Source: Acidobacteriota bacterium
Lineage (GTDB): Bacteria > Acidobacteriota > Blastocatellia > UBA7656
DNA length: 64,000 nt
Direction: 5' to 3'
Assembly (NCBI GenBank): GCA_038040445.1
Contig: JBBPIG010000028.1
Coordinates: 1-64,000 of the forward strand
In this document: positions 5,171 through 23,841 of the stretch, piece after piece
How the letters are laid out: each line of letters starts with the position of its first letter
Numbering within the stretch: the stretch's first letter is position 1
Translations under genes and position numbers: made by a program
The notes under the pieces: model-generated
Seen by the model: only the letters and a program-made list of their open reading frames with translations
What the model was told of the DNA's origin: nothing
Database searches by the model: none

Positions 5171-5182
5171 AGACTTGGCGTT

Positions 5183-5795: not shown

Positions 5796-5807
5796 CTCAA
5801 CGGTTAA
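5739..5807 (+). other. Degenerate attC site 2
   Basis: R' is gttaaac at 5801-5807. A GC-rich inverted pair, cggcgcgcgg and ccggcgcgcgg, lies at about 5746-5775. The R'' side (tgtcaac) pairs poorly with R'. It separates the frameshifted gene from the NTPase cassette. Confidence 0.55.
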
Positions 5808-5818
5808 ACTGGTCTGCC

Positions 5819-8023: not shown

Positions 8024-8166
8024 GACGCGAACGCGGGGCGGATAGGAATTTCAAGCGGATAAGCGGATCAAGCAGGGACCGGCGACTACGGCAGCGGTGA
8101 GAATGTCCTATTATAGATGCGAAAAGTCTTTGATGACGTTCAGGCTGGCCGGCCCCCAATAGGTCT

Positions 8167-8272
8167 GCCTAACGAATCGTTGGACGCGAGCGGCGGGAGC
8201 GTGTTTCGTAACTAGATTTATCCGGCGGAGGGTGCTTTGATTCGCGCCGCCGCGTCAACTCAATCGTTAGGC
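8167..8272 (+). other. attC site 3
   Basis: R'' gcctaac at 8167-8173 and R' gttaggc at 8266-8272; inner arms gacgcgagcggcg and cgccgccgcgtc. About 140 bases between the NTPase stop and this site hold no gene I can see. Confidence 0.92.
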
Positions 8273-8316
8273 GTCGGATGGCGACCATTCGCGTCCGGCT
8301 CGATTCGGAGGATCAG

Positions 8317-8703: not shown

Positions 8704-8731
8704 CCCTCATGCACGTCGCAGCAAAGCCGGC

Positions 8732-8859
8732 GCCTAACCCTCGCTCAAGCGGAGCGCCAACGGCATGCCACCAGGCCCGGGCTGGCGGTACGCGGTACAT
8801 TTTCGCCAGCCCGGGCCTGGCGTCCTGCCGTCGTCGCCCGCTTAGCTCGAACGTTCGGC
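8732..8859 (+). other. attC site 4 with long terminal hairpin
   Basis: R'' gcctaac at 8732-8738, R' gttcggc at 8853-8859. The central variable part is a perfect 17-bp inverted repeat (8771-8787 with 8804-8820, ccaggcccgggctggcg and complement), making a very stable arm that could also terminate transcription. Confidence 0.9.
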
Positions 8860-8934
8860 GGCTATCGCTTATTTCGGATGCGGCGATAGACAAACCGCTT
8901 AGTTAAAGCATCTGCTTAAACACAGGAGGAATGT

Positions 8935-9432
8935 ATGGCTGAGGAAAACACGGAACAGTTAAAAGAAACAGGTCAACCATTTTCATTGACCACAACGGCT
9001 ACCTTGTCAATAATAATCAACAAACTCAAAATCGTTGATTGTGCTGACGATGACGAAGACATGAACATCCGTCTCGCTATTTACGTCACGGGTACAGGGG
9101 GCGAAGCACGGGTATTTGCGAAGAGCTATGATGATGTTTATGTAGAGGAGGAAGGTAAAATCGGAAACGATAGCCGATGCACTTTTTTCGCTGGCGAGCG
9201 CGTTACCAACTTAGCAGACGTGACTAGGGTGAAGATTGGCGTGTTTTTGGAAACCCTTGATGGTGATGGCTTCGATTGGAAAGGCCATCACGACCATATA
9301 AAGGAGGTTGCAAATCTTAGCCTTGGAGATAATACATTTGTCGAGGGAAAGCAACACTCCCACAATACCGAGTGCGAAGGTGTTTATGAACTCAACTACT
9401 CAATTGTTATTAGTCCGGTTGTCAATCAATAG
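8935..9432 (+). CDS. Unknown acidic cassette protein
   Basis: 165 residues with a strong ribosome site (caggaggaatgt) before ATG 8935. It has no signal peptide or TM segment. It is acidic and Thr-rich, with alternating beta-like segments (LTTTATLSIIINKLKIVD, NIRLAIYVTG, RVKIGVFLETLD, YELNYSIVIS) and a His-rich stretch (GHHDH, QHSHN). A beta-sandwich is likely, but I do not recognise the family. Its AT-richer composition compared with the flanks suggests separate origin. Confidence 0.75.
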   Translation: MAEENTEQLKETGQPFSLTTTATLSIIINKLKIVDCADDDEDMNIRLAIYVTGTGGEARVFAKSYDDVYVEEEGKIGNDSRCTFFAGERVTNLADVTRVKIGVFLETLDGDGFDWKGHHDHIKEVANLSLGDNTFVEGKQHSHNTECEGVYELNYSIVISPVVNQ

Positions 9433-9486
9433 TTGAGTTTTAGTCACGCCTGAAATCTTTGTGAGCTTGTCCCCATCGGCATCGCC

Positions 9487-9578
9487 GCCGAACAAGTCGT
9501 TGGACCGGAGCGCGCGAAGCGAGTTTCTTATTGTTCGACCAGTGCCGCTCGCGCGCCCGGTCAACTCGGACGTTAGGT
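9487..9578 (+). other. attC site 5
   Basis: R'' gccgaac at 9487-9493 and R' gttaggt at 9572-9578; arms ttggaccggagcgcgcg and cgcgcgcccggtcaa. Confidence 0.9.
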
Positions 9579-9628
9579 TGAGAGAAGTAACTTAGAAGTG
9601 AGGCGATAAAAACTTAGGGAGGATATTA

Positions 9629-10426
9629 ATGAGTAAGAAGTCTGTATCACCAGTTTGTGTTTACACCATAGTTCATACAGATAGGCTCAAAAACCTGTTC
9701 CTGAAAGGAGGCAAAGGAGAAATTGCAGAGAATAGGAACTGGGCAACGGCTAATAGACTTTTGCAAGAAGCACAGCGCAATAACATGAGAATGTTGGTCA
9801 TTTTTGCTGCGGCTGAACATACAAGCGACCTTATCTATTACGCCAACCTTGAGGCCATCAAGATTGACAAAAAGGACTCAAGCAGTGCCGTAACCACTTT
9901 CCGAGTTTCAGACCTAACGCCCTTTAAAGACCCAAAGCCGAAGAAGACATCGTTAATCGTGAAGAGTACAGATAGAGCTATTCCAGATGGTCATATCAAA
10001 CCTTATGTTATCTGCAAAACACCAATACTGTTGACTATGCTAAAGCTAAAACTCTGCACTTACCAATACGGCAGCCCACGCGAAAGAGGGGAAGGATTAC
10101 GCATCGGCACGACACGCTACTTGCCTCGCGGCGTGTTCAAGAGAGATTACGCTCTGCTCGACTACTTCGACGTGTGGCTTCCTTTGCTTGCACCCAGCAG
10201 AGAACTTCTTCAGTGGGCAAAAAATAAGGAGCGAACACACGAAGCCTGGGCAAAGCGGTACGAGAACGAAATGAAGAACACGGACGCCCGGCAAGTTATC
10301 AAGCTGTTGGCTGAACTTGCCAGGACGACACCTATTGCCATCGGGTGCTTCTGTGCCGATGAGAGCCGTTGCCATCGTTCGGTGCTCTACCCACTTATTC
10401 TACAAGCGGCAGAAGAGGGGGCGTAA
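9629..10426 (+). CDS. DUF488 protein with extra N-terminal domain
   Basis: 265 residues. The C-terminal part (about 150-262) is DUF488: GLRIGTTRYLPRGVFKRDY, LAPSRELLQWAK, WAKRYENEM and the signature GCFCADESRCHRSVLYP. The first 120 residues (NRNWATANRLLQEAQ, MRMLVIFAAAEHTSDLIYYA, TFRVSDL) look like an EVE/ASCH-type PUA fold, which often reads modified nucleobases; that part is tentative. Ribosome site ggagg lies before ATG 9629. DUF488 function is unsettled. AT-rich 5' half. Confidence 0.78.
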   Translation: MSKKSVSPVCVYTIVHTDRLKNLFLKGGKGEIAENRNWATANRLLQEAQRNNMRMLVIFAAAEHTSDLIYYANLEAIKIDKKDSSSAVTTFRVSDLTPFKDPKPKKTSLIVKSTDRAIPDGHIKPYVICKTPILLTMLKLKLCTYQYGSPRERGEGLRIGTTRYLPRGVFKRDYALLDYFDVWLPLLAPSRELLQWAKNKERTHEAWAKRYENEMKNTDARQVIKLLAELARTTPIAIGCFCADESRCHRSVLYPLILQAAEEGA

Positions 10427-10436
10427 GTTTCCAATA

Positions 10437-10540
10437 AGCGGGCCAACAAGGCGCTGGATCGGAGGCAGCGAAGCAGAATTCTTAACGTTCCATCAGTACT
10501 CGGCGCGCGCCCGGTCAACGCGCCACAACTCGGAAAGAGC
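10437..10540 (+). other. Decayed attC site and remnant
   Basis: aacaaggcgctggatcggaggcag... runs parallel to attC 5 (same order of ggcg, ttctta, gcgcgcccggtcaac), but the R' gttaggt is gone. The cassette therefore extends to the next attC at 10624. Confidence 0.6.
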
Positions 10541-10595
10541 TAACTGCGAAAGCAAGGAGTTTCGCGGTTACTCGAAAAGAGCTAACGGCGAAAGC
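10528..10595 (+). repeat. Direct repeat pair
   Basis: Two copies of a 26-bp unit (actcggaaagagctaactgc..., 10528-10553 and 10570-10595) differ at two positions. They lie in the noncoding tail after the decayed attC. Confidence 0.8.
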
Positions 10596-10623
10596 CAGAA
10601 GGAAGCGCTCGCCATTTGAAGCC

Positions 10624-10728
10624 GCCTAACTCTCGTTGCACCGTAGCCGCCGAAGTACGCTTCACAGGGTTTCGACTCTGGCGCATTCGGCTTTCATCAA
10701 CGGCGGCACGGTGAACTCTGCGTTGGGC
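10624..10728 (+). other. attC site 6
   Basis: R'' gcctaac at 10624-10630, R' gttgggc at 10722-10728. Arms caccgtagccgccg and cggcggcacggtg match except for one extrahelical base, as attC recognition requires. Confidence 0.92.
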
Positions 10729-10783
10729 GCCTTCTTTGGGTGCAGCCGGGGAGATCACACTTGCGCCGCAACCGGAGGAAAAG

Positions 10784-11368
10784 ATGGAGATCCTTAAAAT
10801 CCTTGTCACGATACTCCTCGGCATTATCGGGCTATATCTCACCCATAGCTTCCGGCGTCAGGTGAAGCAAAAAACCGCAGACCGGCGAATGAAGTCGTAT
10901 TCCGAGCTTTGGACAATAACTGGCGTGGCAAGTCCGACGAGACTTAAGGAATGGCACGTGGGCATGCCTCGAGGACCAGTTACACAAGAAGAACGCGGCA
11001 ATCTCTACGTGGAATTTACCAAATGGTACTACAAGAGTGGCAACGGGTTATTTCTCGGCGACGGGACAAGAAGTCTATACCTCGCGACGAAAGACAATCT
11101 CATTTGTCCGGATTCTGCATTGAAACCTTCAAAGATTTATGACGCATTACAGAAGCTTCCCGAAGAGCAACGTTCGGCGAAGCGGGGCGAAATGTCGATT
11201 CGCCAACTGTCGCTACTTCGCGCGCGAATGCGAGCGGACTTGGAAGTCTATGGAACGCTCTTCTTCGGAGAACTACAAGACGAAGACAAGGAATTTCTCG
11301 AATATTGTGGAGAAAATCTGAATAGGAAACCCTGGAGCAGTCAGCGGCAGCCAGACATCATGGAATAG
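10784..11368 (+). CDS. Membrane-anchored unknown cassette protein
   Basis: 194 residues from ATG 10784, preceded by ccggaggaaaag; an upstream start at 10736 lacks a ribosome site. One N-terminal TM (ILKILVTILLGIIGLYLT) is followed by a basic cytoplasmic part (RRQVKQKTADRR) and an alpha-helical soluble domain. No family recognised. N-anchored proteins of this size are common in integron cassettes. Confidence 0.75.
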   Translation: MEILKILVTILLGIIGLYLTHSFRRQVKQKTADRRMKSYSELWTITGVASPTRLKEWHVGMPRGPVTQEERGNLYVEFTKWYYKSGNGLFLGDGTRSLYLATKDNLICPDSALKPSKIYDALQKLPEEQRSAKRGEMSIRQLSLLRARMRADLEVYGTLFFGELQDEDKEFLEYCGENLNRKPWSSQRQPDIME

Positions 11369-11421
11369 ACACTGGAGCTGCAAGTGTCATGCTAGCGAGG
11401 ACTCTTTTCCATTCCACCGCC

Positions 11422-11484
11422 GCCCAACTTCCCGCATGCACCGTAGCCGCAAACTACGCGGCACGGTGATGCGGAACGTTCGGC
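11422..11484 (+). other. attC site 7
   Basis: A compact site: R'' gcccaac at 11422-11428 and R' gttcggc at 11478-11484. Arms caccgtagccgc and gcggcacggtg carry an extrahelical base. Very similar in its arms to attC 6. Confidence 0.9.
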
Positions 11485-11490
11485 GTCATC

Positions 11491-11955
11491 ATGAAGCGCC
11501 ATCGAACAGCAAAATCTATGAACATTCGTCAGACTGGGAAGATTCTCCGATACCAACCAACGCCAACGAGCCGATCAACTGTGCGGCGTCACTATGCAAT
11601 GTGGCGCGAAGAAAAAGGTCTGCCTGTTCGCTGCGACATACCAACTTGTCCGTTCCATACACAACCGCTCGTCTGGGCAGGCAAACCGCTTCCAATAATC
11701 CTTGACCATGCTAATGGCAATAACTTAGACAATAGTCCAAGGAATCTTCGGTACGTTTGTCCTAATTGCGACGCCCAGCTCTCGACTCGCGGAGGTGCAA
11801 ATCGCGGTCGTGTTCAGGAAGCAGAAGAGGGCAAATTTGTTCTAATGTCGCGCGATGGAAGGTGCCACTACCACTTGATTCCGGAGCCCGCAATTATTCG
11901 TATCACGGCGCATGCTCCGACGGTTGTCATTACACCAACGAAGGGTGGAAAATGA
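11491..11955 (+). CDS. HNH-endonuclease-like protein
   Basis: 154 residues, ATG 6 bases after the attC core. The central part has an HNH layout: CDIPTCPFH, then a hydrophobic strand ending in LDHANGNNLDNSPRNLRYVC and PNCDAQL. The paired cysteines (C-x4-C and C-x2-C) and the His-Asn positions fit a zinc-stabilised HNH nuclease. The N-terminus looks like a small DNA-binding segment (TSRSTVRRHYAMWREEKGL). DNA cleavage is inferred from the fold; the target is unknown. Confidence 0.75.
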   Translation: MKRHRTAKSMNIRQTGKILRYQPTPTSRSTVRRHYAMWREEKGLPVRCDIPTCPFHTQPLVWAGKPLPIILDHANGNNLDNSPRNLRYVCPNCDAQLSTRGGANRGRVQEAEEGKFVLMSRDGRCHYHLIPEPAIIRITAHAPTVVITPTKGGK

Positions 11956-11956
11956 C

Positions 11957-12020
11957 GCCGAACACGTCGTTGGACCGGAGCGCGGAAAGCGTGTTTAGCA
12001 ACTCGGTTGGCTCGTTTGAC
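11957..12020 (+). other. Truncated attC, 5' half
   Basis: gccgaacacgtcgttggaccggagcgcg repeats the left half of attC 5, but no R' follows before the next complete attC at 12036. This is a fused attC or the scar of a lost cassette. Confidence 0.65.
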
Positions 12021-12035
12021 ATTCTTGGAGGACGC

Positions 12036-12124
12036 GCCGAACTCCCGCGTGGACCGAAGCGCGCGATCGAGTTTGGCGTGAACCTTGAGTGTTACACGCG
12101 CGCTCGGTCACGCGAACGTTCGGC
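12036..12124 (+). other. attC site 8
   Basis: R'' gccgaac at 12036-12042, R' gttcggc at 12118-12124; arms gaccgaagcgcgc and gcgcgctcggtc with one extrahelical base. Nearly the same sequence as the attC at 27809. Confidence 0.92.
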
Positions 12125-12135
12125 GGCTTATCGCT

Positions 12136-13092
12136 ATGACTATTCTCCATAACAACATTAGTGTTAAGTCTCTTATGGATCGTTGGTCGAAGAGGCAAGT
12201 TCTTGGATGGTTGGCAGTCCTGTTATCTACCTCAATTGCCAGCTTCTGGGCATTTTGGGGAATCATCGAGAACTTTCATGAGGGTTGGTTTCATGAGTCG
12301 CTGCTCTTAAACGTCGGACTGATGTTCGTGCAATACCTCGGCCCGGTGATAATCTTCGTGTCGCTGACCCTGCTCGCCATCGCTTTCCCGCGCCTGGGAA
12401 GCAGCGCCCACGCGCTCGGTGGGCTTCTTTTATTCCTGCTGCTCTTTGATTTAAATGACACAGTAGCGATGCTATTCATCATCGCGCCAATGCTCTTACT
12501 GGGAGCGCTCTACTGGTATGGTCGCCCGCAGCCACGCCGTGCGGCGTACTTCTTCGCAATGGGACTGCCTGCCCTCATCCTCGTCGTCTGCGGCCTAGAG
12601 CCTGCCGTGCGCATCGCCGGGCGCGTTGACGATGGCAACTTACAATCTCGTCTGGTGGAGGGCAACGGAGTCCGGCTGGTTTGGGCGGCAGAAGGCGTCG
12701 GCTGGCCTCGTGAAGGCGTTACTTGGCACGAAGCTGTTAGCCGCTGCCAGCATTTATCGGCCGATGGCAAAACGTTAGCTGAAGCTCCGCAGAATGTATG
12801 GCGGTTGCCGACGGTGGAAGAAGCGGTGCGCTCAATGTCGCGTCATGGCGTTAACAGTGGCGGAATCTGGGACGGGAAGACCAGAGCGGCGACTTACCAA
12901 GTTCGCCCCGACAAAGAAACGCCGCTCTGGAACGTCCACTCGCAGGTAATCTACTGGTGGACGGCAACTGAAGTTGATGGCGAGAAGGCATACATCATTG
13001 TTTACGATGGAAAGGTATGGCCGAGGCGCAAGCGATTCGCTCCGGCGTATTTAGGATATAGATGTGTAAAACCCGTGGAAGCGCCGAGGTGA
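12136..13092 (+). CDS. Polytopic membrane protein with C-terminal DUF1566/Lcl-like domain
   Basis: 318 residues from ATG 12136, 17 bases after the attC core (an alternative ATG is at 12175). About five hydrophobic segments fill the first 170 residues. The C-terminal domain has the DUF1566 pattern: GVTWHEAVSRC, WRLPTVEEAVRSM, YWWTATE, YIIVYDGKVWPR, LGYRCVK. DUF1566 relates to C-type-lectin-like/FGE-like folds usually found outside the cell. It shares its cassette with the exported gene downstream (62-base gap, no attC between), suggesting linked function (inference). Confidence 0.75.
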   Translation: MTILHNNISVKSLMDRWSKRQVLGWLAVLLSTSIASFWAFWGIIENFHEGWFHESLLLNVGLMFVQYLGPVIIFVSLTLLAIAFPRLGSSAHALGGLLLFLLLFDLNDTVAMLFIIAPMLLLGALYWYGRPQPRRAAYFFAMGLPALILVVCGLEPAVRIAGRVDDGNLQSRLVEGNGVRLVWAAEGVGWPREGVTWHEAVSRCQHLSADGKTLAEAPQNVWRLPTVEEAVRSMSRHGVNSGGIWDGKTRAATYQVRPDKETPLWNVHSQVIYWWTATEVDGEKAYIIVYDGKVWPRRKRFAPAYLGYRCVKPVEAPR

Positions 13093-13154
13093 GCTGCCCC
13101 AACATACGAGGTGAATCCGGTATCGATTGATAGATCGACGTAAGGAGGAACAAA

Positions 13155-14309
13155 ATGAGAAACCGAATCGATGTTCTCGCAATCGTGGCTCTTGCAGCTT
13201 TGGGTCTGATCCTTGCACCTGCATCGCTTCCAACCACCAGAGCACAGGCTACGAATCCGCCCTACCCAAGCCAGTTTCCCTCAGTCGAGCGTGTGAAGGC
13301 TGAGATAAAAGGCACCGATCCTATGGACACGGCGGCGCGTCAGATGGGCGCGTTCTGGCAACTACAGCAGGTCATCAAGGAACTCTCTGGCCTGCGATGG
13401 ACTCGGAATGAACTCACCCCCGACGAGAAACGGCTGCTGGGTGGATACAGCGGCGGCTACCAGTCTGCCGGGCAGCCTTACGCTTCGTACCCGGACAAAC
13501 CGAAGTGGTATAAGATGCATGCATTCTACGAGACGGATGAAGCCTTCCTCGATAGTCTGTTCGAGCGGTTCCTCTCACCCGCTCTTCGCACCCAATACCT
13601 CAATACTGAATCCCAGACGCGTGCACGGGTACAAGCAGGGAGGGAGCAACGAGCTAACACGCCTGATAAACGAGCTAACACGCCTGATGGCGGCAGACGG
13701 GCCGCGGCTCCAACTAATCCGTGCCCCGTAACAGACCAGCCCAAGACTACTAAGCCAGGTGTTCGACCAAACAGCACTTTATCCGTGATAGGGATACCCT
13801 ATATTCATACCGTCACGAACCTCGATACAGGGAAGGTCGTGTCCCAGACCCGGGAAAACTTCACAAACGCAACGTTTTACCTGCTCGACGACGACGCGGA
13901 GAACGTGTTGCAGAGCGCGGGCCTCGGGCCCGGACTGATGGGTGACCGGTTCGCCAATCTGGCCTTCATCGGAGGAGTGGCGCAGGGGGACAAGATGCCG
14001 CTGATTGGCGGGCTGCTATCGCTGCCTGCTGGTCAAGGCCCCGCGGTAATGGTGAGCGAAGCGAAGGCTGACCTTGAATGCGTCATGAAAGCGATACGCG
14101 CACATAGCGCCGCAGAGATGACAACTGACGCCAACGCCAGGGGCACCTTCCCCAGCGTTGCGGCGGGAACATACTACTTGTATGGTTGGTACTATCGGGT
14201 CCAAAAGCCGGTTCGGCAGGGTCCTGTTGCCTGGAACCTGAAGGTAGAACTCAAGCCGGGTCCAAACACGTTAAGGCTCAATGTGAAAGATGCAGTCTAT
14301 GCACCTTAA
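13155..14309 (+). CDS. Exported protein of unknown function
   Basis: 384 residues with ribosome site aaggagg before ATG 13155. A signal peptide (IVALAALGLILAPASLPTTRA) is cut near AQA, residue 31-33. The mature protein has a first half rich in Tyr/Trp (GYSGGYQSAGQPYASYP), a low-complexity linker with a perfect 7-residue tandem repeat (RANTPDK RANTPDG, near 172-185) and a beta-rich second half. It has no recognised domain. Second gene of a two-gene cassette. Confidence 0.75.
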   Translation: MRNRIDVLAIVALAALGLILAPASLPTTRAQATNPPYPSQFPSVERVKAEIKGTDPMDTAARQMGAFWQLQQVIKELSGLRWTRNELTPDEKRLLGGYSGGYQSAGQPYASYPDKPKWYKMHAFYETDEAFLDSLFERFLSPALRTQYLNTESQTRARVQAGREQRANTPDKRANTPDGGRRAAAPTNPCPVTDQPKTTKPGVRPNSTLSVIGIPYIHTVTNLDTGKVVSQTRENFTNATFYLLDDDAENVLQSAGLGPGLMGDRFANLAFIGGVAQGDKMPLIGGLLSLPAGQGPAVMVSEAKADLECVMKAIRAHSAAEMTTDANARGTFPSVAAGTYYLYGWYYRVQKPVRQGPVAWNLKVELKPGPNTLRLNVKDAVYAP

Positions 14310-14363
14310 GACGTAAGTGGGATTAAGTAACCAATCCTTGTAGGTGCTTGCATCCGAGGCCGC

Positions 14364-14454
14364 GCCTAACTCTGGCGTGCAGCGGAGCGCGCGAGTCGGG
14401 TTCGCCGTGATCCGAGTAGGTACGTCGCGCGCCCGCTGACGCCTGGCGTTGGGC
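14364..14454 (+). other. attC site 9
   Basis: R'' gcctaac at 14364-14370 and R' gttgggc at 14448-14454; arms gcgtgcagcggagcgcgcg and gcgcgcccgctgacgc. Confidence 0.92.
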
Positions 14455-14517
14455 CGACGAAACCTGACCACCCGAGATGACGTGTTCGAGGTCGTGCGAT
14501 CATCAGGCGTGGCGTCG

Positions 14518-14841
14518 GTGTACGTCGAAACGACAATTGTCAGCTATTTGACCGCGCGACCAAGTCGCGACGCGGTGCTGGCGGCGCATCAGACGTTGAC
14601 GCGCGACTGGTGGCGGGATCGGGCTGCTTACGAACTGCGGGTCTCGCAGCTTGTCATTGGCGAGGCCGCAGTGAGTGACGAGTTCCAGCAGGCTCGCCGC
14701 GTGCGCGCGTTGCGAGGCATCCCGGTCCTCTCGCTGAAGGACCCGGCGACGCGGATCGCGCGAGAGTTGGTCCGGCAAGCTGCTCGTCTACCTGCGGCTC
14801 CTCGACTTGCCGGTGCCATCGGTCTACGGACCCACCGCTGA
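14518..14841 (+). pseudogene. Truncated PIN-domain protein
   Basis: The frame from TTG 14449 or GTG 14518 reads VYVETTIVSYLTARPSRD, then LVIGEAAVSDE and GIPVL, the N-terminal two-thirds of a PIN ribonuclease (first acidic position in VETT, second in GEA). After about 14770 homology stops. The last 24 residues are out of pattern, and another frame there reads LLVYLRLLDLPVPSVYG to a stop at 14866. That looks like a junction with a different gene's tail. The AADALH-type last acidic motif is missing, so it is probably inactive. No attC follows. Confidence 0.65.
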
Positions 14842-14949
14842 CGAGAACCCGTTTGCGGACGTCTAATGCCTTGTTGCGATGCCGTTGACGACGGGCCTGC
14901 TTGACGAGGAGTAGGATCGCCGGATCATTCTTGGGTAACGGAGGACGCG

Positions 14950-15453
14950 ATGGCGGACATCAACACGGCACTCGACGCAAGCAAAGATGCGATTCAGCAA
15001 TTGATCATCGCCGGCGAGCGCACAGGGACCGCCTGGACTTCGCCACGTGCGCCGGGAAAGTGGTCGCCCAGCCAGATCGTGGAGCACGTCGCCCGCGGCC
15101 TTGAGGAGGCGGCCAACATAGCGGCTGGCCGTCCCTCAAAGCTTCCAAAGCTTCCCGCAGTCGTTCTCCTCATCCTCCGGCTCCTGTTCTTCAAGCGAAT
15201 ACTGAGGAAGGCAGTGTTCCCAAAGGGGTGGAAGGCCCACAAGGCGATGGATCCCGCGAGCGGGCCCGCGACGCCTGCCGAGGGACGCGTTCGCCTCGAG
15301 ACGGCGCACCAGCAGTTCGACGAGGCCTGCCGCCAGGCCGCCTCGCACGGCGAGCGGATGCGAACGATCTTCGGTGCGGTGCCCGTGGAGGACTGCGTGC
15401 GCTTCGTGGAACTCCACACGCGCCATCACGGCAAGCAGATGGCGGACCGTTAG
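14950..15453 (+). CDS. DinB-like (four-helix metal-binding) protein
   Basis: 167 residues with ribosome site cggagg before ATG 14950. It has the DinB superfamily layout: an N-terminal helix, GKWSPSQIVEHVARGLEEA (His ligand candidate) and a C-terminal HTRHHGKQM motif with further His ligands. This fold covers bacillithiol/mycothiol-dependent transferases and many uncharacterised stress proteins; the substrate is unknown. It sits in a composite cassette of four genes without internal attC sites. Confidence 0.75.
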   Translation: MADINTALDASKDAIQQLIIAGERTGTAWTSPRAPGKWSPSQIVEHVARGLEEAANIAAGRPSKLPKLPAVVLLILRLLFFKRILRKAVFPKGWKAHKAMDPASGPATPAEGRVRLETAHQQFDEACRQAASHGERMRTIFGAVPVEDCVRFVELHTRHHGKQMADR

Positions 15454-15466
15454 CAGCAGGATCCCG

Positions 15467-15613
15467 ATGGCGTACGACGAGCAGCTCGCGAATCGCATCC
15501 GCCAGGCGTTCGGCACCCGGAAGGACATCACCGAACGCAAGGTGTTCGGTGGTCTCGCCTTCCTCTATCTCGGTCGGATGTGCTGCGGCATCGTCGGTCG
15601 TATCGCGCTCTGA
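15467..15613 (+). pseudogene. TfoX N-terminal domain fragment
   Basis: 48 residues: MAYDEQLANRIRQAFG, KDITERKVFGGLAFLYLGRMCCGIVG, then an immediate stop. The start of a TfoX/Sxy N-terminal domain (usually about 100 residues) is clear, but the second half is missing. It begins 14 bases after the DinB-like gene. The next 138 bases have no coding homology I can see. Confidence 0.7.
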
Positions 15614-15751
15614 AAGCGCTCGTCCGCGGACAGTCCCACAATAGGCGCGTTTGCGGCTCGGCCGATGAGGGGTCGGGGTCGGTGGACACCCCCGGCGTGA
15701 TGGCCGGTTTTGGACCGTCGCAAGCCACTTCCTTTTCGCCCCGGAGGTTCC

Positions 15752-16171
15752 ATGGCTGAACTGAAGACGAAGCAGACGGAAGCAAGCGTTGAGGAGTATC
15801 TCGACACCATCGAGGATCCGCGTCGCCGAGCCGACTGTGCGGCGATATCCGCACTCATGAAGAGAGTGACGAAATTCGAGCCCAAGATGTGGGGGCCAAG
15901 CATCGTTGGCTTCGGCAGCTACCACTACCGGTACGAGACTGGGCACGAAGGCGACGCATGCCTCGCCGGGTTCTCGTTTAGAAGGCCAGAGATTGTTGTC
16001 TACATCGCAGATGGTTTTGAATCTCGCGAGGAACTCCTGCAGCAGATTGGAAAGCACAGGACGGGCAAGGTCTGCCTCTACATCAAGAGGCTCTCAGACA
16101 TAGACGTCGGAGTCCTTGAGAAACTCGTCAAAGCGTCAGTGGCCGAGGTGCGAAAGCGATACCCGTCGTGA
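15752..16171 (+). CDS. DUF1801 domain protein
   Basis: 139 residues from ATG 15752 (ccggagg upstream). It reads SVEEYLDTIEDPRRRADC, MWGPSIVGFGSYHYRY and AGFSFRRPEIVVYI, ending KLVKASVAEVRKRYPS. This is the DUF1801/YdhG-like fold of small frataxin-like proteins of unsettled function. It is the last gene of a composite cassette and is followed directly by attC. Confidence 0.85.
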   Translation: MAELKTKQTEASVEEYLDTIEDPRRRADCAAISALMKRVTKFEPKMWGPSIVGFGSYHYRYETGHEGDACLAGFSFRRPEIVVYIADGFESREELLQQIGKHRTGKVCLYIKRLSDIDVGVLEKLVKASVAEVRKRYPS

Positions 16172-16178
16172 GAGCGAC

Positions 16179-16247
16179 GCCTAACCCCTCGTTCAACCGG
16201 ACCCGCTACGGCAGGCCGCAGCGGTCCGGTTAACTCGAACGTTAGGT
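16179..16247 (+). other. attC site 10
   Basis: R'' gcctaac at 16179-16185 and R' gttaggt at 16241-16247; arms caaccggacccgct and agcggtccggtta with an extrahelical base. Confidence 0.92.
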
Positions 16248-16333
16248 TGCGACACGAAGTCGCGTGAGTGGCTGTTGTGACTGTTGTTTGAAGGACACAA
16301 CCTGATGTTCTGCCATCAGTATCCTACCAGAGC

Positions 16334-17137
16334 GTGCGTCACTGGCAACGGTGAGGTTCGATGCCTCTGGGACAATGTAGCCTCGTCCTTCGGGATGGCA
16401 GCCTTATTCGTGAGAAGTGGCTGCGACTGTTAGCATCAACACGGTCGGGAGCTAGGATCGAGTGGCATGGTCAACACATTGTGAATCGCTGATAAATGTC
16501 GTTATACGAGAACAAGCCAAAGATGCTGACGCCTGCTCGGTTGAATACAATCAACTCGACAGACACAGGCTTGGACCAAAAGGTACGTGGCCAAGTTCAG
16601 GTGTTCCTAACTCACCTGACGCAGACCTCGCGCCACCGGCAGAGAGGCGAGACCTAACCCACTCTGGCACTCACACGAAACGTGGTAAGCCCGTAGTTCT
16701 CCCGATGGCAAGACTTCTTTTCCAAGACAGAAGTCGAACTCAAGGGAAAGCGAGCCGTAAGGCGAACCCAAGGGACTGCGGGTATGGGAGTGTGGAAAAA
16801 GCGAAGGCCGTTCTGTAATCGAGCGGATAGAGGTTGAGCGCAACAGAGTAATGCGCAACATCACCTCAAGCGAAAGCAGGCTGACTTCCAACTGGTGTCT
16901 GGTCACGAGAGAGTCTGACAAACCGACTTAGGAGAGAATGCAGATGACAGCCGCAGCTTAAGCTGGTGCGCTCTCCCGCGAAAGCGCGTTGGCATCAGAT
17001 GAGTATCGTGAAGGCGGTGTTTGAAGTAGAACATTGCCGGGTCCCGCGAGGGCCTTATGAGATGCTTGAGCCGGATGTCGGGAAACTTGCAAGTCCGGTT
17101 TTTAGGGGGCGGGGCGGTGGCAACATCGCCCTGCTAC
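16334..17137 (+). mobile_element. ORF-less group II intron
   Basis: About 800 bases of structured RNA sequence in the leader of the next cassette. Domain V is a clean 34-nt hairpin at 17068-17101: it starts GAGCCGG (AGC triad), has a GAAA tetraloop and ends TCCGGTTT. A domain VI-like stem follows (17105-17137). The 5' end is taken as GTGCG at 16334. A ribosome site and ATG at 16944, where an intron-encoded reverse transcriptase should start in domain IV, run only five codons (MTAAA) to a stop, and under 130 bases remain before domain V. So the protein is deleted. Exact ends are approximate. It could be mobilised only in trans. Confidence 0.82.
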
Positions 17138-17172
17138 CCGGCCGGCTTCCTGGCCGCGACTCGGAGGAGATT

Positions 17173-17643
17173 ATGGATACGCAAACGTTGATAGCTACTT
17201 TAGAGGCCGCACCCGGCATTATCATTGGCCTCGTCCGCGAGGTGCCGCCCCAGAACCTCAAGCGCCGCCCTGCGCCGAACAAGTGGTCCGCTCACGAGCA
17301 TGCCTGTCACATATCTACCGGGCAGGCGACATTCCTCTCACGCCTGGAGTTGATGCTCTCTGACCCGCTCCCCCAAATAAAGTCTATGGAACCATCACCG
17401 GACGAGGAGGCCGGCTCACTACTGAGCGTTGATCTGGACGAAGCGCTGGGCCGGTACGTGCGGGAGCGGGCGCTGGTCGTTAAGCGGTTGAAGGAGCTAT
17501 CCGCAGACGATTGGCAGCGGACGGCCGAGCATGAGGCGTTCAGCCACTACTCGGTGTATATAATGTTCAGGCACCTGCTGATGCATGAGATGCTTCACGC
17601 ATACAGGATAGATGAGCTGATGCTGAAAAAGGATTGGGAGTAA
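17173..17643 (+). CDS. DinB-like protein, second
   Basis: 156 residues from ATG 17173 with ggaggag upstream, 35 bases after the predicted intron end. DinB_2-type: APNKWSAHEHACHIS, LLSVDLDEALGRYVRERA, and the C-terminal FRHLLMHEMLHAYRID with His ligands. Three His positions fit a metal site of the DinB/YfiT superfamily. The substrate is unknown. If the intron still splices, it would alter the 5' leader of this mRNA. Confidence 0.82.
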   Translation: MDTQTLIATLEAAPGIIIGLVREVPPQNLKRRPAPNKWSAHEHACHISTGQATFLSRLELMLSDPLPQIKSMEPSPDEEAGSLLSVDLDEALGRYVRERALVVKRLKELSADDWQRTAEHEAFSHYSVYIMFRHLLMHEMLHAYRIDELMLKKDWE

Positions 17644-17665
17644 ACAACTGGCTAGACAGGTCGCC

Positions 17666-17750
17666 GCCTAACAACTCGCTCGAGCGGACAAACCTCGCGC
17701 CCTCGCTGCGCTCGTCCGCTGCGGTTTGCCGCTCAGTTCGGGCGTTCGGC
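17666..17750 (+). other. attC site 11
   Basis: R'' gcctaac at 17666-17672 and R' gttcggc at 17744-17750; arms ctcgagcggacaaacc and ggtttgccgctcag. Confidence 0.9.
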
Positions 17751-17781
17751 GGCTTGCAACGGCCTGACGTAGAGTGACTGT

Positions 17782-18522
17782 ATGATGATTCAACTCGGGC
17801 ATGTCTGCGAACTTGTGCGGTATCCCGTCAAGTCGATGGCAGGTACCGCGACGGAGTCGGCATTTCTCGGGTGGCACGGTCTCGATGGTGATCGGCGCTT
17901 CGCTTTCCGGCGCTTGGGAGACGACAGCGGCTTCCCGTGGCTTTCGGCAAGCCGCCTCCATGAACTCCTCCTGTATCACGCTTTCGGTCTCGATGAGAGC
18001 ACCGGCGAGCCTCTGCCAACTCACGTACGCACGCCCGCCGGAACGAACGTAGAGTTGCGCAGCGCAGAGCTCCAGAGCGAGGTTGCCGAGCGTTTTGGCA
18101 GCAGCCTGGAATTGATGAAGCTCAAGCACGGGATCTTCGATGATGCGCCGGTATCGGTCATTAGCCTGGCGACCATTGCCGGCATCGGTCGCGAGGCGGG
18201 AGTGGATCTCGATCGCCGGCGGTTCCGAGCCAACATTGTGCTTGAGACCGGCAATCCAGAGCCGTTTCTCGAAGATGGGTGGGTTGGCGGGACACTGGTG
18301 TTCGGCGATAGTGAGCCAAGGCCAGCCGTAAGTGTGACGGCGCGCGACGTGCGATGTATGATGATTAACCTCGATCCGGACACGGGCTCAAAGGACGTGC
18401 GGGCGATGAAGACAGTCGTGCGACTGAACAAGAACACCGCGGGCGTCTATGGAACTGTGGTGCAAACCGGCACAATCCTCGTTGGCCAGACAGTGAGCCT
18501 GGTTTTGGGCGCGCGGCGCTGA
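17782..18522 (+). CDS. MOSC domain protein
   Basis: 246 residues. An N-terminal MOSC beta-barrel (ELVRYPVKSMAG, GLDGDRRFAF) is followed by the MOSC domain: RRFRANIVLETG, then ARDVRCMMINLDPDTG with the conserved Cys that ligates the molybdenum cofactor. Relatives reduce N-hydroxylated compounds (YcbX, YiiM, mARC type) or sulfurate the cofactor. As a cassette cargo it may detoxify N-hydroxy base analogues (inference). Confidence 0.88.
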   Translation: MMIQLGHVCELVRYPVKSMAGTATESAFLGWHGLDGDRRFAFRRLGDDSGFPWLSASRLHELLLYHAFGLDESTGEPLPTHVRTPAGTNVELRSAELQSEVAERFGSSLELMKLKHGIFDDAPVSVISLATIAGIGREAGVDLDRRRFRANIVLETGNPEPFLEDGWVGGTLVFGDSEPRPAVSVTARDVRCMMINLDPDTGSKDVRAMKTVVRLNKNTAGVYGTVVQTGTILVGQTVSLVLGARR

Positions 18523-18546
18523 AGACGGGCTTAACTCTATCGCGCC

Positions 18547-18634
18547 GCCAAACTAGCGGTTGCAACGGAGCGGGTGCACGCAGATGCTCAGCCTTCGTCC
18601 GCTGCGCCGCCCCGGTTGAACCTGGGCGTTCGAC
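18547..18634 (+). other. attC site 12
   Basis: R'' gccaaac at 18547-18553 (one off consensus) and R' gttcgac at 18628-18634; arms gcggttgcaacggagcg and cgccccggttgaacctg pair imperfectly. Confidence 0.82.
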
Positions 18635-18665
18635 GGCAATACCTCCACATCGAAGAAGTGCTAGG

Positions 18666-19088
18666 ATGAAACAATCAATCGTACATATAGCTTTGGTCGT
18701 TAGAGATTACGATGAGGCCATAGAGTTTTACACAAAAAAGCTTCATTTCACACTGGTTGAAGATACCTATCAGCCGGAGCAAGATAAGCGCTGGGTAGTG
18801 GTCTCTCCGCCTGGCTCGCTTGGAACTACGTTGTTACTAGCGAGAGCGTCAAAACCGGAACAGGAATCTTTCATTGGCAATCAGTCTGGCGGGCGAGTGT
18901 TGTTATTTCTCAATACGGATGATTTTTGGAGGGACTACAACGATATGATTTCCAACGGAACAAAGTTCGTCAGAGAGCCTAAGAAAGAAATCTATGGCAC
19001 GGTTGCTGTTTTTGAAGACCTGTATGGGAATCTGTGGGATCTGCTGGACCTCAATGACGACCATCCAATCTCCAAGCGAGCGGTCTAA
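18666..19088 (+). CDS. VOC family protein
   Basis: 140 residues: IVHIALVVRDYDEAIEFYTKK opens the first beta-alpha-beta-beta-beta module with a His ligand candidate; GRVLLFLNTDDFWRDY and AVFEDLYGNLWDLLDL form the second. A closer match to typical glyoxalase-like proteins than the two paralogues at 8317 and 24121. The stop overlaps a decayed attC. Substrate unknown. Confidence 0.87.
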   Translation: MKQSIVHIALVVRDYDEAIEFYTKKLHFTLVEDTYQPEQDKRWVVVSPPGSLGTTLLLARASKPEQESFIGNQSGGRVLLFLNTDDFWRDYNDMISNGTKFVREPKKEIYGTVAVFEDLYGNLWDLLDLNDDHPISKRAV

Positions 19089-19162
19089 CCGGGATTGACC
19101 GGTGCGTTTCTTATGGTTGCTTTGAGTGCCGTTCGCGCGCCCGATCATCCCAACCGCTAGAG
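19083..19162 (+). other. Degenerate attC site 13
   Basis: R'' gtctaac at 19083-19089 and an internal pattern parallel to attC 5 (ttgaccgg, tttctta, gcgcgcccg), but R' has decayed to about gctagag. VOC and serine hydrolase genes thus form one fused cassette. Confidence 0.6.
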
Positions 19163-19265
19163 CGGCTCCGGGTGGGCGTGGTGTTAAAGAAGATCGCAGG
19201 CGGAACGTTACTATTGCGTTGGCTAGTAGAAACAAAACTCAACTAAACAGGGATGGAGGAAAACC

Positions 19266-20603
19266 ATGCACGGCAAACGTACTCCCTTTTTCGCGCTCGT
19301 CTTATTGTTCACCGCGACGGTCGCTGCGCGCGCAGACAAAATAGACGACTACGTCAAAGCCGAGATGCAGAGACAGCATATTCCCGGCACATCGATCGCT
19401 GTCCTAAAGGACGGGAAGATCATCAAGGCGGAGGGCTACGGCCTGGCAAATGTTGAACTGAATGTTCCTGCCAGACCAGAAACCGTTTACAAAATCGGTT
19501 CCGTTAGCAAGCAACTAATCGCCACAGGAATCATGATCCTGATTCAGGACGGCAAGTTGAGCCTCGATGACAAAATCAGCAAGTTTCTTGAAGGCACACC
19601 CGATACCTGGAAAGAGATTACCGTCCGACATCTGTTGACCCACACATCGGGACTCGTCCGCGAGGCGCCAGGCTTCGATCCGCTCAAAATCCAAAATGAC
19701 GCTGACGTAATAAAGACTGCCTACCCATTGCCGCTCCGGTTTGCGCCGGGGGAGAAGTGGGAATATTGCAATGTCGGGTACTTTTCACTGGCCGAGATCA
19801 TTCGAAAAGTTACCGGCATGCCGTGGGGCGACTACTTGAACGAGCGTCTTTATTCGCCGCTCGAAATGAACGCCACACGCACGACCACCATGACCGCGCT
19901 GGTTCAGAACCGCGCAAACGGATATGTCTGGACGGATGGCAAGCTGCAAAACGCCGGCGTCTACTTCGCGTTGCGCCCAAGCGGGGCATTTCTTTCCACC
20001 GTTCTTGACCTGGCGAAGTGGGATGCTGCGCTCTACACCGACCGAATTCTCAAGCAGTCTACCCTCAGCCAGGTGTGGATGCCGGTCAAATTGAACAGCG
20101 GCGCAACTCATCCTTACGGCTTCGGCTGGGAACTAAGCAGCGTGGCGGGCCACAAGCTGGTGCACCATGGCGGTTCGCTTCCGGGTTTTCGCGCCCAAAT
20201 CGCGCGATTCGTGGACGATAAACTGACCGTAGTTGTCCTGACGAATGGCGACAATGCAAACCCGAATTCCATCGCGCTCGGCATCGCGGCGTTTTATATA
20301 CCTGGTTTAATACCGGAGCGCACGGTCGCAAGAATAGACCCCAAAATCCTTGATGCCTACACCGGGCAATATCAGCATCCATCGGTGGTCTTCGCGGTCA
20401 CCCGCGAAGGCGACAAGTTACGGTTGCAACAAGGGTCGAACTCGGAAAAACAAGATCTGCTGCCGGAAAGCGCAACCAACTTTTTCATGAACGAGAATCG
20501 ACGCCTCACCTACAGCTTCGTCAAAGATGAAAAAGGAGAAGTCGCCTATCTGGTAGTTCAGCTTGAAGGCCGTGAAACGGGGAGGGCGAAGAAAATCAAA
20601 TAG
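19266..20603 (+). CDS. Exported serine hydrolase, class C beta-lactamase family
   Basis: 445 residues with ribosome site ggaggaaaacc. A signal peptide (LVLLFTATVAARA) is cut near residue 23. The beta-lactamase/DD-peptidase fold is clear: nucleophile motif SVSK (near 71-74), YCN (near 162-164) and HHGG near 300-303. The C-terminal about 90 residues form a beta domain of the DUF3471 type. Cassette enzymes of this fold may be esterases or peptidases rather than beta-lactamases, and I cannot tell which. Confidence 0.88.
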   Translation: MHGKRTPFFALVLLFTATVAARADKIDDYVKAEMQRQHIPGTSIAVLKDGKIIKAEGYGLANVELNVPARPETVYKIGSVSKQLIATGIMILIQDGKLSLDDKISKFLEGTPDTWKEITVRHLLTHTSGLVREAPGFDPLKIQNDADVIKTAYPLPLRFAPGEKWEYCNVGYFSLAEIIRKVTGMPWGDYLNERLYSPLEMNATRTTTMTALVQNRANGYVWTDGKLQNAGVYFALRPSGAFLSTVLDLAKWDAALYTDRILKQSTLSQVWMPVKLNSGATHPYGFGWELSSVAGHKLVHHGGSLPGFRAQIARFVDDKLTVVVLTNGDNANPNSIALGIAAFYIPGLIPERTVARIDPKILDAYTGQYQHPSVVFAVTREGDKLRLQQGSNSEKQDLLPESATNFFMNENRRLTYSFVKDEKGEVAYLVVQLEGRETGRAKKIK

Positions 20604-20608
20604 GCCGC

Positions 20609-20700
20609 GCCTAGACTCCGGAGTGCATCGGAGCGCGCGGGCCGGTGTTCGCTATAGTGCGAGTGCAACGCCGCGCGCTCGCTGACGCCTGACGTTAGGC
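20609..20700 (+). other. attC site 14
   Basis: R'' gcctaga at 20609-20615 (consensus aac changed) and R' gttaggc at 20694-20700; arms cggagcgcgcg and cgcgcgctcgctg. Confidence 0.85.
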
Positions 20701-20714
20701 AACTGAGAGGCGCT

Positions 20715-21113
20715 ATGGGCTATGATCTCTTCATAACTCGAGCGGAGTTTTGGCCAGAAAACGAAGGTCGAGAGATAACTGCGGAAGAATGGGTGAAGCT
20801 TGTTGAAGCTGACCAGGAGTTGAAGTTGGCTGGATACAATGGACCCTATTTTGCCTTGTGGGATGGACCCTCGAAGTATCCGGAGGCATGGTTAGATTGG
20901 GACAACGGGAACATCTACAGCAAGAACCCAGATAAGGCTATTGTCGCTAAAATGATTCAAATAGCAGGTAGGTTGGGCGCAAGAGTGCAGGGGCAGGACG
21001 GGGAGATCTATCTTGATACGTCTCAGGTGAGCGACCCCGACGATCCCCTACCTCCAATCGAAATAGAGAGAAGTGGGCAGCGATGGTGGAGGCGCATGTT
21101 TCGCGCCCGCTGA
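20715..21113 (+). CDS. Unknown cassette protein
   Basis: 132 residues, ATG 15 bases after the attC core. Trp/Tyr-rich N-terminus (MGYDLFITRAEFWPENEG, ITAEEWVKLVEAD, YFALWDGPSKYPEAWLDWDNG), then a helix (AIVAKMIQIAGRLGARVQG). No TM or signal. I do not name a family. The last residues (RWWRRMFRAR) are encoded in what looks like the 3' half of an attC, so the natural C-terminus may be altered. Confidence 0.72.
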   Translation: MGYDLFITRAEFWPENEGREITAEEWVKLVEADQELKLAGYNGPYFALWDGPSKYPEAWLDWDNGNIYSKNPDKAIVAKMIQIAGRLGARVQGQDGEIYLDTSQVSDPDDPLPPIEIERSGQRWWRRMFRAR

Positions 21114-21128
21114 CGCGTGGCGTTAGGT
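21095..21128 (+). other. attC, 3' half only
   Basis: cgcgcccgctgacgcgtggc followed by gttaggt (21122-21128) matches the right half of attC 9. No R'' or left arm is seen, so the site is probably truncated. Confidence 0.6.
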
Positions 21129-21143
21129 TTCACAGAATGTCCG

Positions 21144-22019
21144 ATGGCGAAACGTAAGAACAAGTTTGCGAGATGGATGGGTCCGGTGCTCGATGCGCTG
21201 CGGGAACTCGGCGGTTCCGGCAAGCCGCGCGAGGTACTTGACCTCGTTGCAGATCGCCACGGGCTCTCCGACGCCAATCTTGAGGCTACTCTGAAGTCGG
21301 GCCAGACGCGGTTCTATAACCAAGTTCACTGGGCACGCCAATACCTGGTCTGGGAAGGCCTCGTTGATGGCTCGACTCACGGGGTGTGGTCCTTGACCTC
21401 CACCGGCTTCGAGACTTCGCTCGACGACGAGGCGGCGCACCGGCTAGCTCTCAAGTGGGGCAAGATTCACGCCGCAGCCAAGCGAAAGAGCGACGATGCC
21501 GACGAGGAAGACGCTCCCGTGCCCGCTGCGGAGGTCGTCGCCGACCAGGACAATCGGTATCTCCTGCTCGAGATCCTCAAGAAGGTGACCCCTCAAGGGT
21601 TCGAGAGCATCTGCGGTCGCCTGCTTCGGGAGTCGGGTTTCGAGAAAGTAACCGTCACCGGGCGGTCCAAAGATGAGGGTATTGATGGCATCGGAATTCT
21701 GCAGGTCAATCCCTTTGTGAGTTTCAAGGTCCTCTTCCAGTGCAAGCGATACAAGGGTTCAGTGTCCAGGGCTCAGGTCGGTGACTTTCGAAATGCAATG
21801 ATCGGCCGCGCTGACAAGGGCATCATCATCATCACCACCGGCACGTTCACGGCGGATGCGCGTCGCGAGGCCGACCGGGATGGTGCTCCTCCGGTCGAAC
21901 TCGTCGATGGCGACAAGCTCGTCGAGATGTTCGAGCGTGTTGGGCTCGGCCTGAAACCACGCACGGTGTATGAACTTGACCGTGCGTTCTTCGCGAACTA
22001 CCTGCCAAGTGAAACCTAA
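21144..22019 (+). CDS. mrr: Mrr-type restriction endonuclease
   Basis: 291 residues from ATG 21144. An N-terminal winged-helix Mrr_N domain (VLDALRELGGSGKPREVLD, WARQYLVWEGLVDG) is joined by an acidic linker to an Mrr catalytic domain (about 140-270): GFESICGRLLRESGFEKV, then D in DEGIDGIG and QCK in FQCKRYKG, the PD-(D/E)xK core. Mrr enzymes cut DNA carrying methylated bases, so no partner methyltransferase is needed, and none is present in this cassette. The stop overlaps attC. Confidence 0.9.
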   Translation: MAKRKNKFARWMGPVLDALRELGGSGKPREVLDLVADRHGLSDANLEATLKSGQTRFYNQVHWARQYLVWEGLVDGSTHGVWSLTSTGFETSLDDEAAHRLALKWGKIHAAAKRKSDDADEEDAPVPAAEVVADQDNRYLLLEILKKVTPQGFESICGRLLRESGFEKVTVTGRSKDEGIDGIGILQVNPFVSFKVLFQCKRYKGSVSRAQVGDFRNAMIGRADKGIIIITTGTFTADARREADRDGAPPVELVDGDKLVEMFERVGLGLKPRTVYELDRAFFANYLPSET

Positions 22020-22107
22020 CTTGCTTATCCAGCGGAGCGCGCGCACCGATAGTTCGTCCTCGGCCCTTGACGCCGTCGCGCGCGCCCGCTGATCGTCAGC
22101 GTTAGGT
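22014..22107 (+). other. attC site 15
   Basis: R'' acctaac at 22014-22020 and R' gttaggt at 22101-22107; arms cagcggagcgcgcgc and gcgcgcgcccgctg. Confidence 0.92.
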
Positions 22108-22157
22108 CCTCGCGAAGATCAGTTGAGCCAATCGGCGTAAAGTAGTAAGTTTGCCGT

Positions 22158-22217
22158 ATGCAAAAAATTGAAATTCAATTGTCAGAACTAACAGCAGTCA
22201 AGCTCCTTGGGGAGTAG
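22158..22217 (+). pseudogene. 19-codon ORF fragment
   Basis: ATG 22158 opens [19 protein letters not shown] and stops. It lies in the leader of the propeller cassette and resembles the start of a small antitoxin-like or hypothetical protein that has been cut. It may be chance. Confidence 0.3.
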
Positions 22218-22291
22218 TGTCCAGATTTTCGCTCTTGCCAGGTTCCGAAGAAGCCAGCAACCCGCTTGACGTATCAGGAGGCCCTATTTTT

Positions 22292-23707
22292 ATGAAGCGC
22301 TCATTTGTTTTCGTTGTGTCCTGTCTGCTGTTGATCGTCACCGTTGACCGCGCCGACGCGCAGTGGGCGCGGTTTCGCGGGCCAAACGGGTCTGGTGTCG
22401 ATTTGTCGGTCGGGTATCCCGTCGAGTTTTCGCCTACCAAGAACGTGGCGTGGAAGGCGTCGGTGCCCTACGGGCAGTCGTCACCGATCGTAGTGGGCAC
22501 CCGGCTCTACGGCACCGCCAGCGAAGGCGACCGGTTGATCACGTTCTGCCTGGACACGCGGACCGGCCGGGAACTATGGCGCCGGGAAGTCCGGCGAGAG
22601 CGAGTGCAGGCCGCATACAAAGCCAATGATCCGGCATCGCCAACCCCAGCGGCCGACGAGAGCGGGGTCGTGGCCTTCTTCCCTGAATTTGGATTGGTGT
22701 CGTACAACAACGACGGGCAAGTGCGTTGGACCTCCCGCCTCGGCCCCTTTAAGAACTTCTACGGAATGGCAGGTTCGCCAATCATCGAAGGGGGCACGGT
22801 CGTGCTGGTATGCGACCAGCAGGCGGGGTCCTTTGTCATTGCGCTCGACCGCTCGACCGGGCGTCTGCGATGGAAGACCGGCCGGCCAGGCATGATGATT
22901 GGGTGGTCGACGCCCATGGTCTTTCGACCGGACGCGACGCGCGCGGACTTGATCGTGCTCGGCTCGACGCGTCTCGACGCCTACGATCTCGCGTCCGGCG
23001 CGCAGCGCTGGTGGCTGCCGGTGGCGTCCGGTGGCGCAATGGGCACGCCGTTGGCGCACGGTGACACCCTGATGATCACCACCCTTGGCAGCAATGAGCC
23101 GTCGATGCCGACCTTCGCCGCGGTGCTGTCGCAATACGACAAGGACAAGGACGGGCGCCTGTCATTGCAAGAGTTTCGCGGTGATGCGGACCTTGGGGAG
23201 CACTTCGGCTGGATCGATGAGAACGACGACAAGTTCATCGTCGCCCAGGAATGGAACAAGACGCGGGCGTATGACGTGGGCGAGTGGGGGACGATCGCCG
23301 TTCGCCCGGGCAGCGCGCGGGGCCAGCTCGAGCCGGGCGCGATTCGCTGGCGCCTTAAGAAGAACATCCCGTACATTCCGGCGCCGCTGCTGTACCAGGG
23401 CGTGTATTACATGGTGAAAACCGGCGGCATCATCACCTCGCTTGATCCCGCGACAGGCCGCATCCTGAAGGAGGGCCGGAGCCCCGGCGCGCTGGGCGAG
23501 TACTATGCGTCACCGGTTGCCGCGGACGGTAAGGTGTTCCTCGCGAATACCGAAGGCAAGATCACCGTTCTCAAAGCTGGTGCGGAGTGGGAGGTGCTCG
23601 CCGTCAACGAAATGGACGACGAGGTCAATGCAACGCCCGCCCTGAGCGATGGACGGGTCTACGTGCGGACGCACAGCGCATTGTACTGCTTCAGCACCTC
23701 GCGTTAG
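22292..23707 (+). CDS. Exported PQQ-type beta-propeller protein with EF-hands
   Basis: 471 residues from ATG 22292 (caggagg upstream). A signal peptide ([19 protein letters not shown]) is followed by [11 protein letters not shown] and repeated propeller blades ([48 protein letters not shown]). Two EF-hand-like loops sit mid-protein: [13 protein letters not shown] and [13 protein letters not shown]. The PQQ_2-like repeat plus EF-hand insertion is known from periplasmic proteins of unknown role in Planctomycetota and Acidobacteriota. At 1.7 kb this is a long cassette. Confidence 0.87.
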
Positions 23708-23748
23708 CCGAGCCGCCGCGATAAGTCACTAGCCCTGCGTATGGCGGC

Positions 23749-23841
23749 ACCTAACAATGGCGTGAACCGGAGCCGCCGAAGCGGATTTCTTATGGTTCTT
23801 TGGCGCGTTACACGGCGGCCCGGTTACGCCTGACGTTAGGC
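23749..23841 (+). other. attC site 16
   Basis: R'' acctaac at 23749-23755 and R' gttaggc at 23835-23841; arms gtgaaccggagccgccg and cggcggcccggttac. Confidence 0.92.

Follow-up and report, generated by a model that had tools for sequence, protein, structure and literature searches.

An ORF-less group IIB intron at the R′ box of attC in an integron gene cassette

The origin of gene cassettes has long been an open question, and one proposal is that they are made by retroelements able to recognise attC sites. The locus described here, part of a 64,000-nucleotide stretch of DNA (the window) from a Blastocatellia bacterium, carries a group II intron between an attC site and the gene of the following cassette, and poses the question of how the intron came to stand there and whether attC itself was its target.

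The integron and its intron

A complete chromosomal integron lies in the window, with intI beside an array of at least nine attC sites that span 5087–23841 according to a hairpin scan of the window. The integrase gene and the features that flank the intron are the following:

3404–4342, + strand: intI, the integron integrase gene, intact, 344-aa open frame (TIGR02249, 458.9 bits, cut-off 265)
16179–16247, + strand: attC of the DUF1801 cassette, with R″ GCCTAAC at 16179–16185 and R′ GTTAGGT at 16241–16247
17173–17643, + strand: DinB_2 family gene, ATG at 17173, cargo of the intron-led cassette (PF12867, E 1.6e-16)
17666–17750, + strand: attC of the DinB cassette (hairpin scan)

The R″ and R′ boxes of the DUF1801 attC pair at 7/7 positions (MFE −34.6; z −4.3 against dinucleotide shuffles), and the folded top strand has its base at the intron splice site. 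An RBS-like GGAGG stands just 5′ of the DinB_2 gene, within the 3′ exon. Two DinB_2 family genes are present in nearby cassettes of the one array, at 14950–15453 and at 17173–17643.

The intron and the exon segments that it can pair with comprise these parts:

16234–16239, + strand: IBS2, CTCGAA, in the 5′ exon (5/6 pairs with EBS2)
16241–16246, + strand: IBS1, GTTAGG, the attC R′ core and end of the 5′ exon (6/6 with EBS1)
16247–17142, + strand: ORF-less group IIB intron, 896 nt, 5′ UUGCG … GGC 3′ (ends from aligned copies; Rfam matches)
16301–16452, + strand: domain I core (RF02012, group-II-D1D4-7, 114.1 bits, E 3e-23)
16505–16510, + strand: EBS2, UACGAG, pairing with IBS2
16597–16619, + strand: EBS1 hairpin, 7-bp stem and 9-nt loop UUCCUAACU, with EBS1 CCUAAC at 16606–16611
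17066–17142, + strand: match to domains V and VI (RF00029, 50.4 bits, cut-off 40)
17068–17101, + strand: domain V, 34 nt, AGC triad, GAAA loop, bulge AAG rather than ACG (RF00029 alignment and sequence)
17103–17142, + strand: domain VI, bulged A before CCC, intron end GGC where relatives have GAC (Rfam match and aligned copies)

The initial annotation had proposed an ORF-less group II intron in a cassette leader on the strength of a domain V with AGC triad and GAAA loop, expecting an intron body upstream; the RF00029 match, the RF02012 covariance-model match to domain I and the complete EBS1/IBS1 pairing bear this out. Its placement of the intron between an attC, which lies just upstream, and a DinB-like gene downstream was likewise correct, as was its orientation with the cassette, for which one precedent exists in UHB.I2 (PMC7923331). 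A distance of about 85 bases from the attC core had also been given, and this does not hold, since comparison of independent copies places the 5′ end at 16247, within the R′ box itself; the start at 16248 was thus close but inexact, and the 3′ end falls at 17142.

These ends follow from the homology shared by the family, which begins with (G/T/C)TGCGACACGAAGTCGC and finishes with CTACCCGAC, or CTACCCGGC in the window, whereas the domain I match starts only at 16301 because the RF02012 model lacks the intron's initial ~54 nt. The boundary consensus of group II introns is GUGYG … AY. The intron of the window, with UUGCG … GC, lies outside this consensus; GUGCG … AC is found in three further ORF-less copies. 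Exceptions to the consensus occur, as in UHB.I2 with UUGCG … GU (PMC7923331). The intron is probably of the CL1 type (IIB1).

Insertion into attC and exon recognition

The intron begins inside the attC R′ box, at GTTAGG/TTGCG on the top strand, in cassette orientation. An identical 5′ end directly follows an attC R′ in two further copies from the window's own genome (G000), on contigs C52 and C68, in related genomes of the same bacterial family (G003 C46, C75, where it occurs twice, and C14; G005 C97; G006 C289) and in a Chloroflexi MAG. By contig matches, G003, G005 and G006 are Blastocatellia or Chloracidobacterium, Acidobacteriota. The 5′ exons of these other copies end in GTTAGG, GTTATG, GTCAGG, GGTAGG, GTTGG, GTTAGA or GGTTGA, each with an R″-like box and arms upstream.

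The association with attC was assessed by a strict scripted test that requires an R′ box, an R″ box, pairing between them and an inner helix. It was passed by 8/9 insertions, the nine being eight of the window's bacterial family and the one Chloroflexi copy, and by 0/11 insertions of other relatives, against a null rate of 0.47% of positions on the same contigs, both strands. C52 fails the test, though its attC is visible by eye; the G003 C14 copy, read after the test, likewise follows an attC. The stability of the upstream hairpin alone separated the sites poorly because GC-rich shuffles fold too, whereas the box-based test did separate them. On the other side of the intron, the first base of the 3′ exon is C in 8/8 family copies with a readable 3′ end, which fits the Y expected of R′ and gives, from the compared sequences, GTTRRR^Y on the attC top strand as the target rule of the family. 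In the single-base EBS3/IBS3 pairing of group IIB introns, this C would be IBS3. A search for an intron-free DinB cassette, that is, an empty-site allele, returned only DinB genes in other contexts, with 64–75% identity. In another Blastocatellia family, five insertions (L075, L085, L027, L099 and L109) share a 5′ exon motif, CGTCCAWTGAWYTG, behind CCCAAC/CCGAAC hairpins, which failed the strict test and may be degenerate attC sites.

The choice of site can be read from the EBS1 hairpin, whose 7-bp stem and 9-nt loop 3′ of the domain I core recur with the same geometry in 9 other copies; G136 is the only intact copy with another geometry. Six loop bases face the last six exon bases, and all six pair in the window (CCUAAC × GUUAGG) as well as in the introns of G160 (CAAAUC × GAUUUG), G086 (ACAAGU × ACUUGU) and G136 (AUGGAG × CUCCAU). 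Over 11 introns with differing sites, the total pairing score is 58/66, versus 34 for permuted exons (p = 5e-6, permutation); for EBS2/IBS2 over 11 introns, p = 0.0013. Pairing is poor in G006 C289, with 2 Watson–Crick pairs and 1 GU of 6. The window EBS1, CCUAAC, is spelled like the attC R″ box, whose partner within attC is R′ itself, and the observed EBS1–R′ pairing would be the means by which the intron finds attC. The first 330 nt of the intron, also searched for EBS1, held weak signals and the EBS2 segment only, the true EBS1 lying further 3′; CCUAC of domain I (16323) was rejected as EBS1, being conserved in relatives with other sites.

Relatives and the loss of the reading frame

A full-length relative in the same genome, as the initial annotation suggested seeking, was not recovered: C52 is 566 nt long and is missing the EBS region, C68 consists of the 5′ part without the 3′ half, and no group II maturase was found in the window's own assembly, which is rated 100% complete. 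The only sizeable reverse transcriptase there, on C6, matches a group II RT profile in part, and was rejected as the driver of the intron, as it reads as a CRISPR-linked RT beside Cas1. Contig C68 of G000 (L008, 3558 bases) has the same 37 bases at both ends and contains one attC, a haem peroxidase-like gene and the 5′ part of the intron; it looks like a single-attC circle, as an excised cassette would, or like an assembly loop.

The nearest gene-bearing copy is that of G003 C75 (L066), which stands directly after an attC in a genus other than that of the window and encodes an intact 537-aa RT/maturase with RVT_N, RVT_1 and GIIM domains, although domain VI, at the 3′ end of this intron, seems to be damaged. 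The best solved match of this RT is the T. elongatus group IIB maturase, 6ME0 chain C (E 1e-175), whereas the window copy has lost its own ORF. The T. elongatus RNP of PDB 6ME0, from which that maturase comes, is not known to have an integron link. In the array at L066, a bare 5′ intron end lies right after another attC, at about 4215–4130 (− strand), and represents a truncated insertion; the RT-bearing copy follows about 446 bases downstream.

Six copies of the family group together in a single clade (support 98/97), and the domain I tree nests the RT-bearing copy within ORF-less ones; a single ORF loss therefore needs recombination as well, or there was more than one event. Beyond this clade, introns that carry related RTs on plasmids of Proteobacteria and Bacteroidota were set aside as attC cases, because their neighbourhoods show, at the level of annotation, umuDC and other genes. 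Viral contigs gave no match to an intron-derived peptide or to the 5′ motif. L067 (G132:C219) shows a nested, twintron-like arrangement, in which an intron of the same type interrupts a sibling intron's RT gene and its exon encodes …GFDFLGQ.

What remains of the reading frame in the window copy falls into two overlapping features:

16931–16976, + strand: domain IVa stem-loop, 6-bp stem, holding the remnant of the RT start (ATG 16938 and 16944, stop TAA 16959)
16938–17015, + strand: internally deleted RT/maturase N-terminus remnant, MQMTAAA*AGALSRE … IVKA (comparison with the intact 537-aa RT of L066)

The RT start at ATG 16944, with a stop after five codons, had been noted at the outset and is confirmed, with a further ATG at 16938; that the rest of the gene is gone was an overstatement, since ~20 N-terminal codons and, beyond an internal deletion, a later IVKA piece remain. 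The same remnant is common to four ORF-less copies (window, C52, G003 C46 and G006 C289), with a layout of ~20 N-terminal codons, either interrupted by a stop or deprived of the start, the IVKA piece and then the closing of domain IV. The stem of domain IVa shows two-sided changes in 5/6 pairs over 5 copies, with 100% of cells paired, and one ORF-less copy has lost even the remnant ATG. Binding of the maturase to domain IVa is established for Ll.LtrB. ORF-less T. elongatus introns that share one deletion have been shown experimentally to be mobilised in trans by a related IEP (PMC2882425). Because the stem covaries among ORF-less copies, one of which dispenses with the ATG, and because of these two precedents, it is most likely as RNA structure, within a maturase-binding domain IVa, and not as a gene that the start codon has been retained.

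Origin, present activity and known counterparts

The window copy very probably reached the R′ box of an integron cassette by homing, as a non-autonomous group IIB retroelement whose ORF had been deleted. Sequence and covariation show that CCUAAC in the EBS1 loop pairs with GTTAGG of R′ on the top strand and that insertion takes place at GTTRRR^Y; EBS2 forms a weaker pairing, with the right arm of attC next to R′. A related RT/maturase, of which an intact example exists at an attC in a related genus, would have acted in trans on the retained domain IVa to bring about reverse splicing and copying. Entry six bases past the IntI crossover point would have left most of R′ in place, and the intron would have become the leader of the downstream cassette and would travel with it. 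Splicing of the cassette transcript would restore GTTAGG-C…RBS-DinB, with the junction GTTAGG-CGGCTTCC. Because no maturase was found in its genome, the window copy is probably stranded now. The intron and its relatives appear to be parasites specialised on integrons that find their sites by base pairing. We give an even chance to the fuller proposal of a group IIB lineage in which EBS1 copies R″ and so reads R′, leaving the core undestroyed, in which non-autonomous members spread by trans retrohoming and as cassette passengers, and in which the U1 of the window copy keeps R′ as GTTRRRY and G(−2) compensates.

A quite different history would be a single entry into one cassette followed by IntI shuffling, the upstream attC being merely that of whichever cassette precedes it. 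An intron 6 nt past the IntI crossover point would indeed move with the downstream cassette, but each copy has a different downstream gene and 3′ exon, and where EBS1 varies it fits the IBS1 of the same copy, the pattern expected of independent homing; we consider this history improbable. Far less credible still is that the intron belongs to the well-known group IIC-attC type, which shares with it the use of integron attC hairpins as targets. Introns of that type enter the bottom strand at TTGT/T in R″, antisense to the cassettes (PMC7923331), and have a short EBS1 and no EBS2; the window copy, in contrast, lies on the top strand at R′ in cassette-sense orientation, with a 6-bp EBS1, an EBS2, an AGC triad and, in its relative, a IIB-type RT.

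Homing at some past time is compatible with a decayed intron that is no longer spliced and serves only as the long untranslated leader of the DinB cassette, a view that concerns present activity and to which we assign slightly less than an even chance. The window copy is off consensus at catalytic places, with U in place of G at position 1, G in place of A at the penultimate position and AAG in place of ACG in the domain V bulge; this, the missing maturase and the losses in the sister copies C52 and C68 speak for decay. On the other side, all domains are recognisable, EBS1/IBS1 pairing is perfect and the stems of domain IVa and EBS1 are intact. The first and penultimate intron bases interact in the second splicing step (PMC4238363; PMC3669008), and because UHB.I2 combines U1 with G(−2) as well, the pair may be compensatory for splicing, the cases being two only, the window and UHB.I2. 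U1 also restores R′ to GTTRRRY. The chances that the window copy splices at present are about equal either way.

The closest counterpart to the homing intron proposed here is UHB.I2, one full IIB1/CL1 intron described, besides two class E fragments, from a soda-lake integron, directly after an attC and in cassette orientation, with poor exon conservation and a role of the hairpin that was speculative (Sonbol and Siam, 2021; PMC7923331). Both are of group IIB, stand immediately after attC in cassette orientation, and share the 5′ UUGCG and the penultimate G; the CL1-type RT of UHB.I2 probably has its like in the window family. UHB.I2 differs in encoding its own IEP and in being a single case for which no conserved exon was reported, whereas the window family is a supported, mostly ORF-less clade whose EBS1 is complementary to R′. 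The ORF-less TeI3 introns of Thermosynechococcus elongatus resemble this family in the deleted domain IV ORF with N-terminal remnants, the retained domain IVa and several copies with good EBS/IBS pairing, although attC sites are not among the targets described for them (PMC2882425). The shared deletion and retained domain IVa of that trans-mobilised type are both present in the window family; its driver maturase, in contrast to TeI3, is absent from the host assembly (G000) and one is present in the related genome G003. A search of the open-access literature for reports linking group II introns to integrons in Acidobacteria returned nothing relevant. A group IIB intron after attC is thus known from one full case; what appears to be new is that such introns form a clade, that it has ORF-less members and that EBS1 follows R′ as a rule of targeting.

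The family would represent a second, unrelated solution to attC targeting, by a IIB intron that reads R′ on the top strand through base pairing, which makes the idea of retroelements as cassette makers newly testable. It also provides an intron that naturally targets a recombination site, and puts a family of non-autonomous introns on record for Acidobacteria. Other structured RNAs of the window, both on the − strand, are a c-di-AMP riboswitch (ydaO/yuaA leader) at 38738–38896 (59 bits) and an RNase P RNA of class A with long inserts at 45147–45662 (254 bits).
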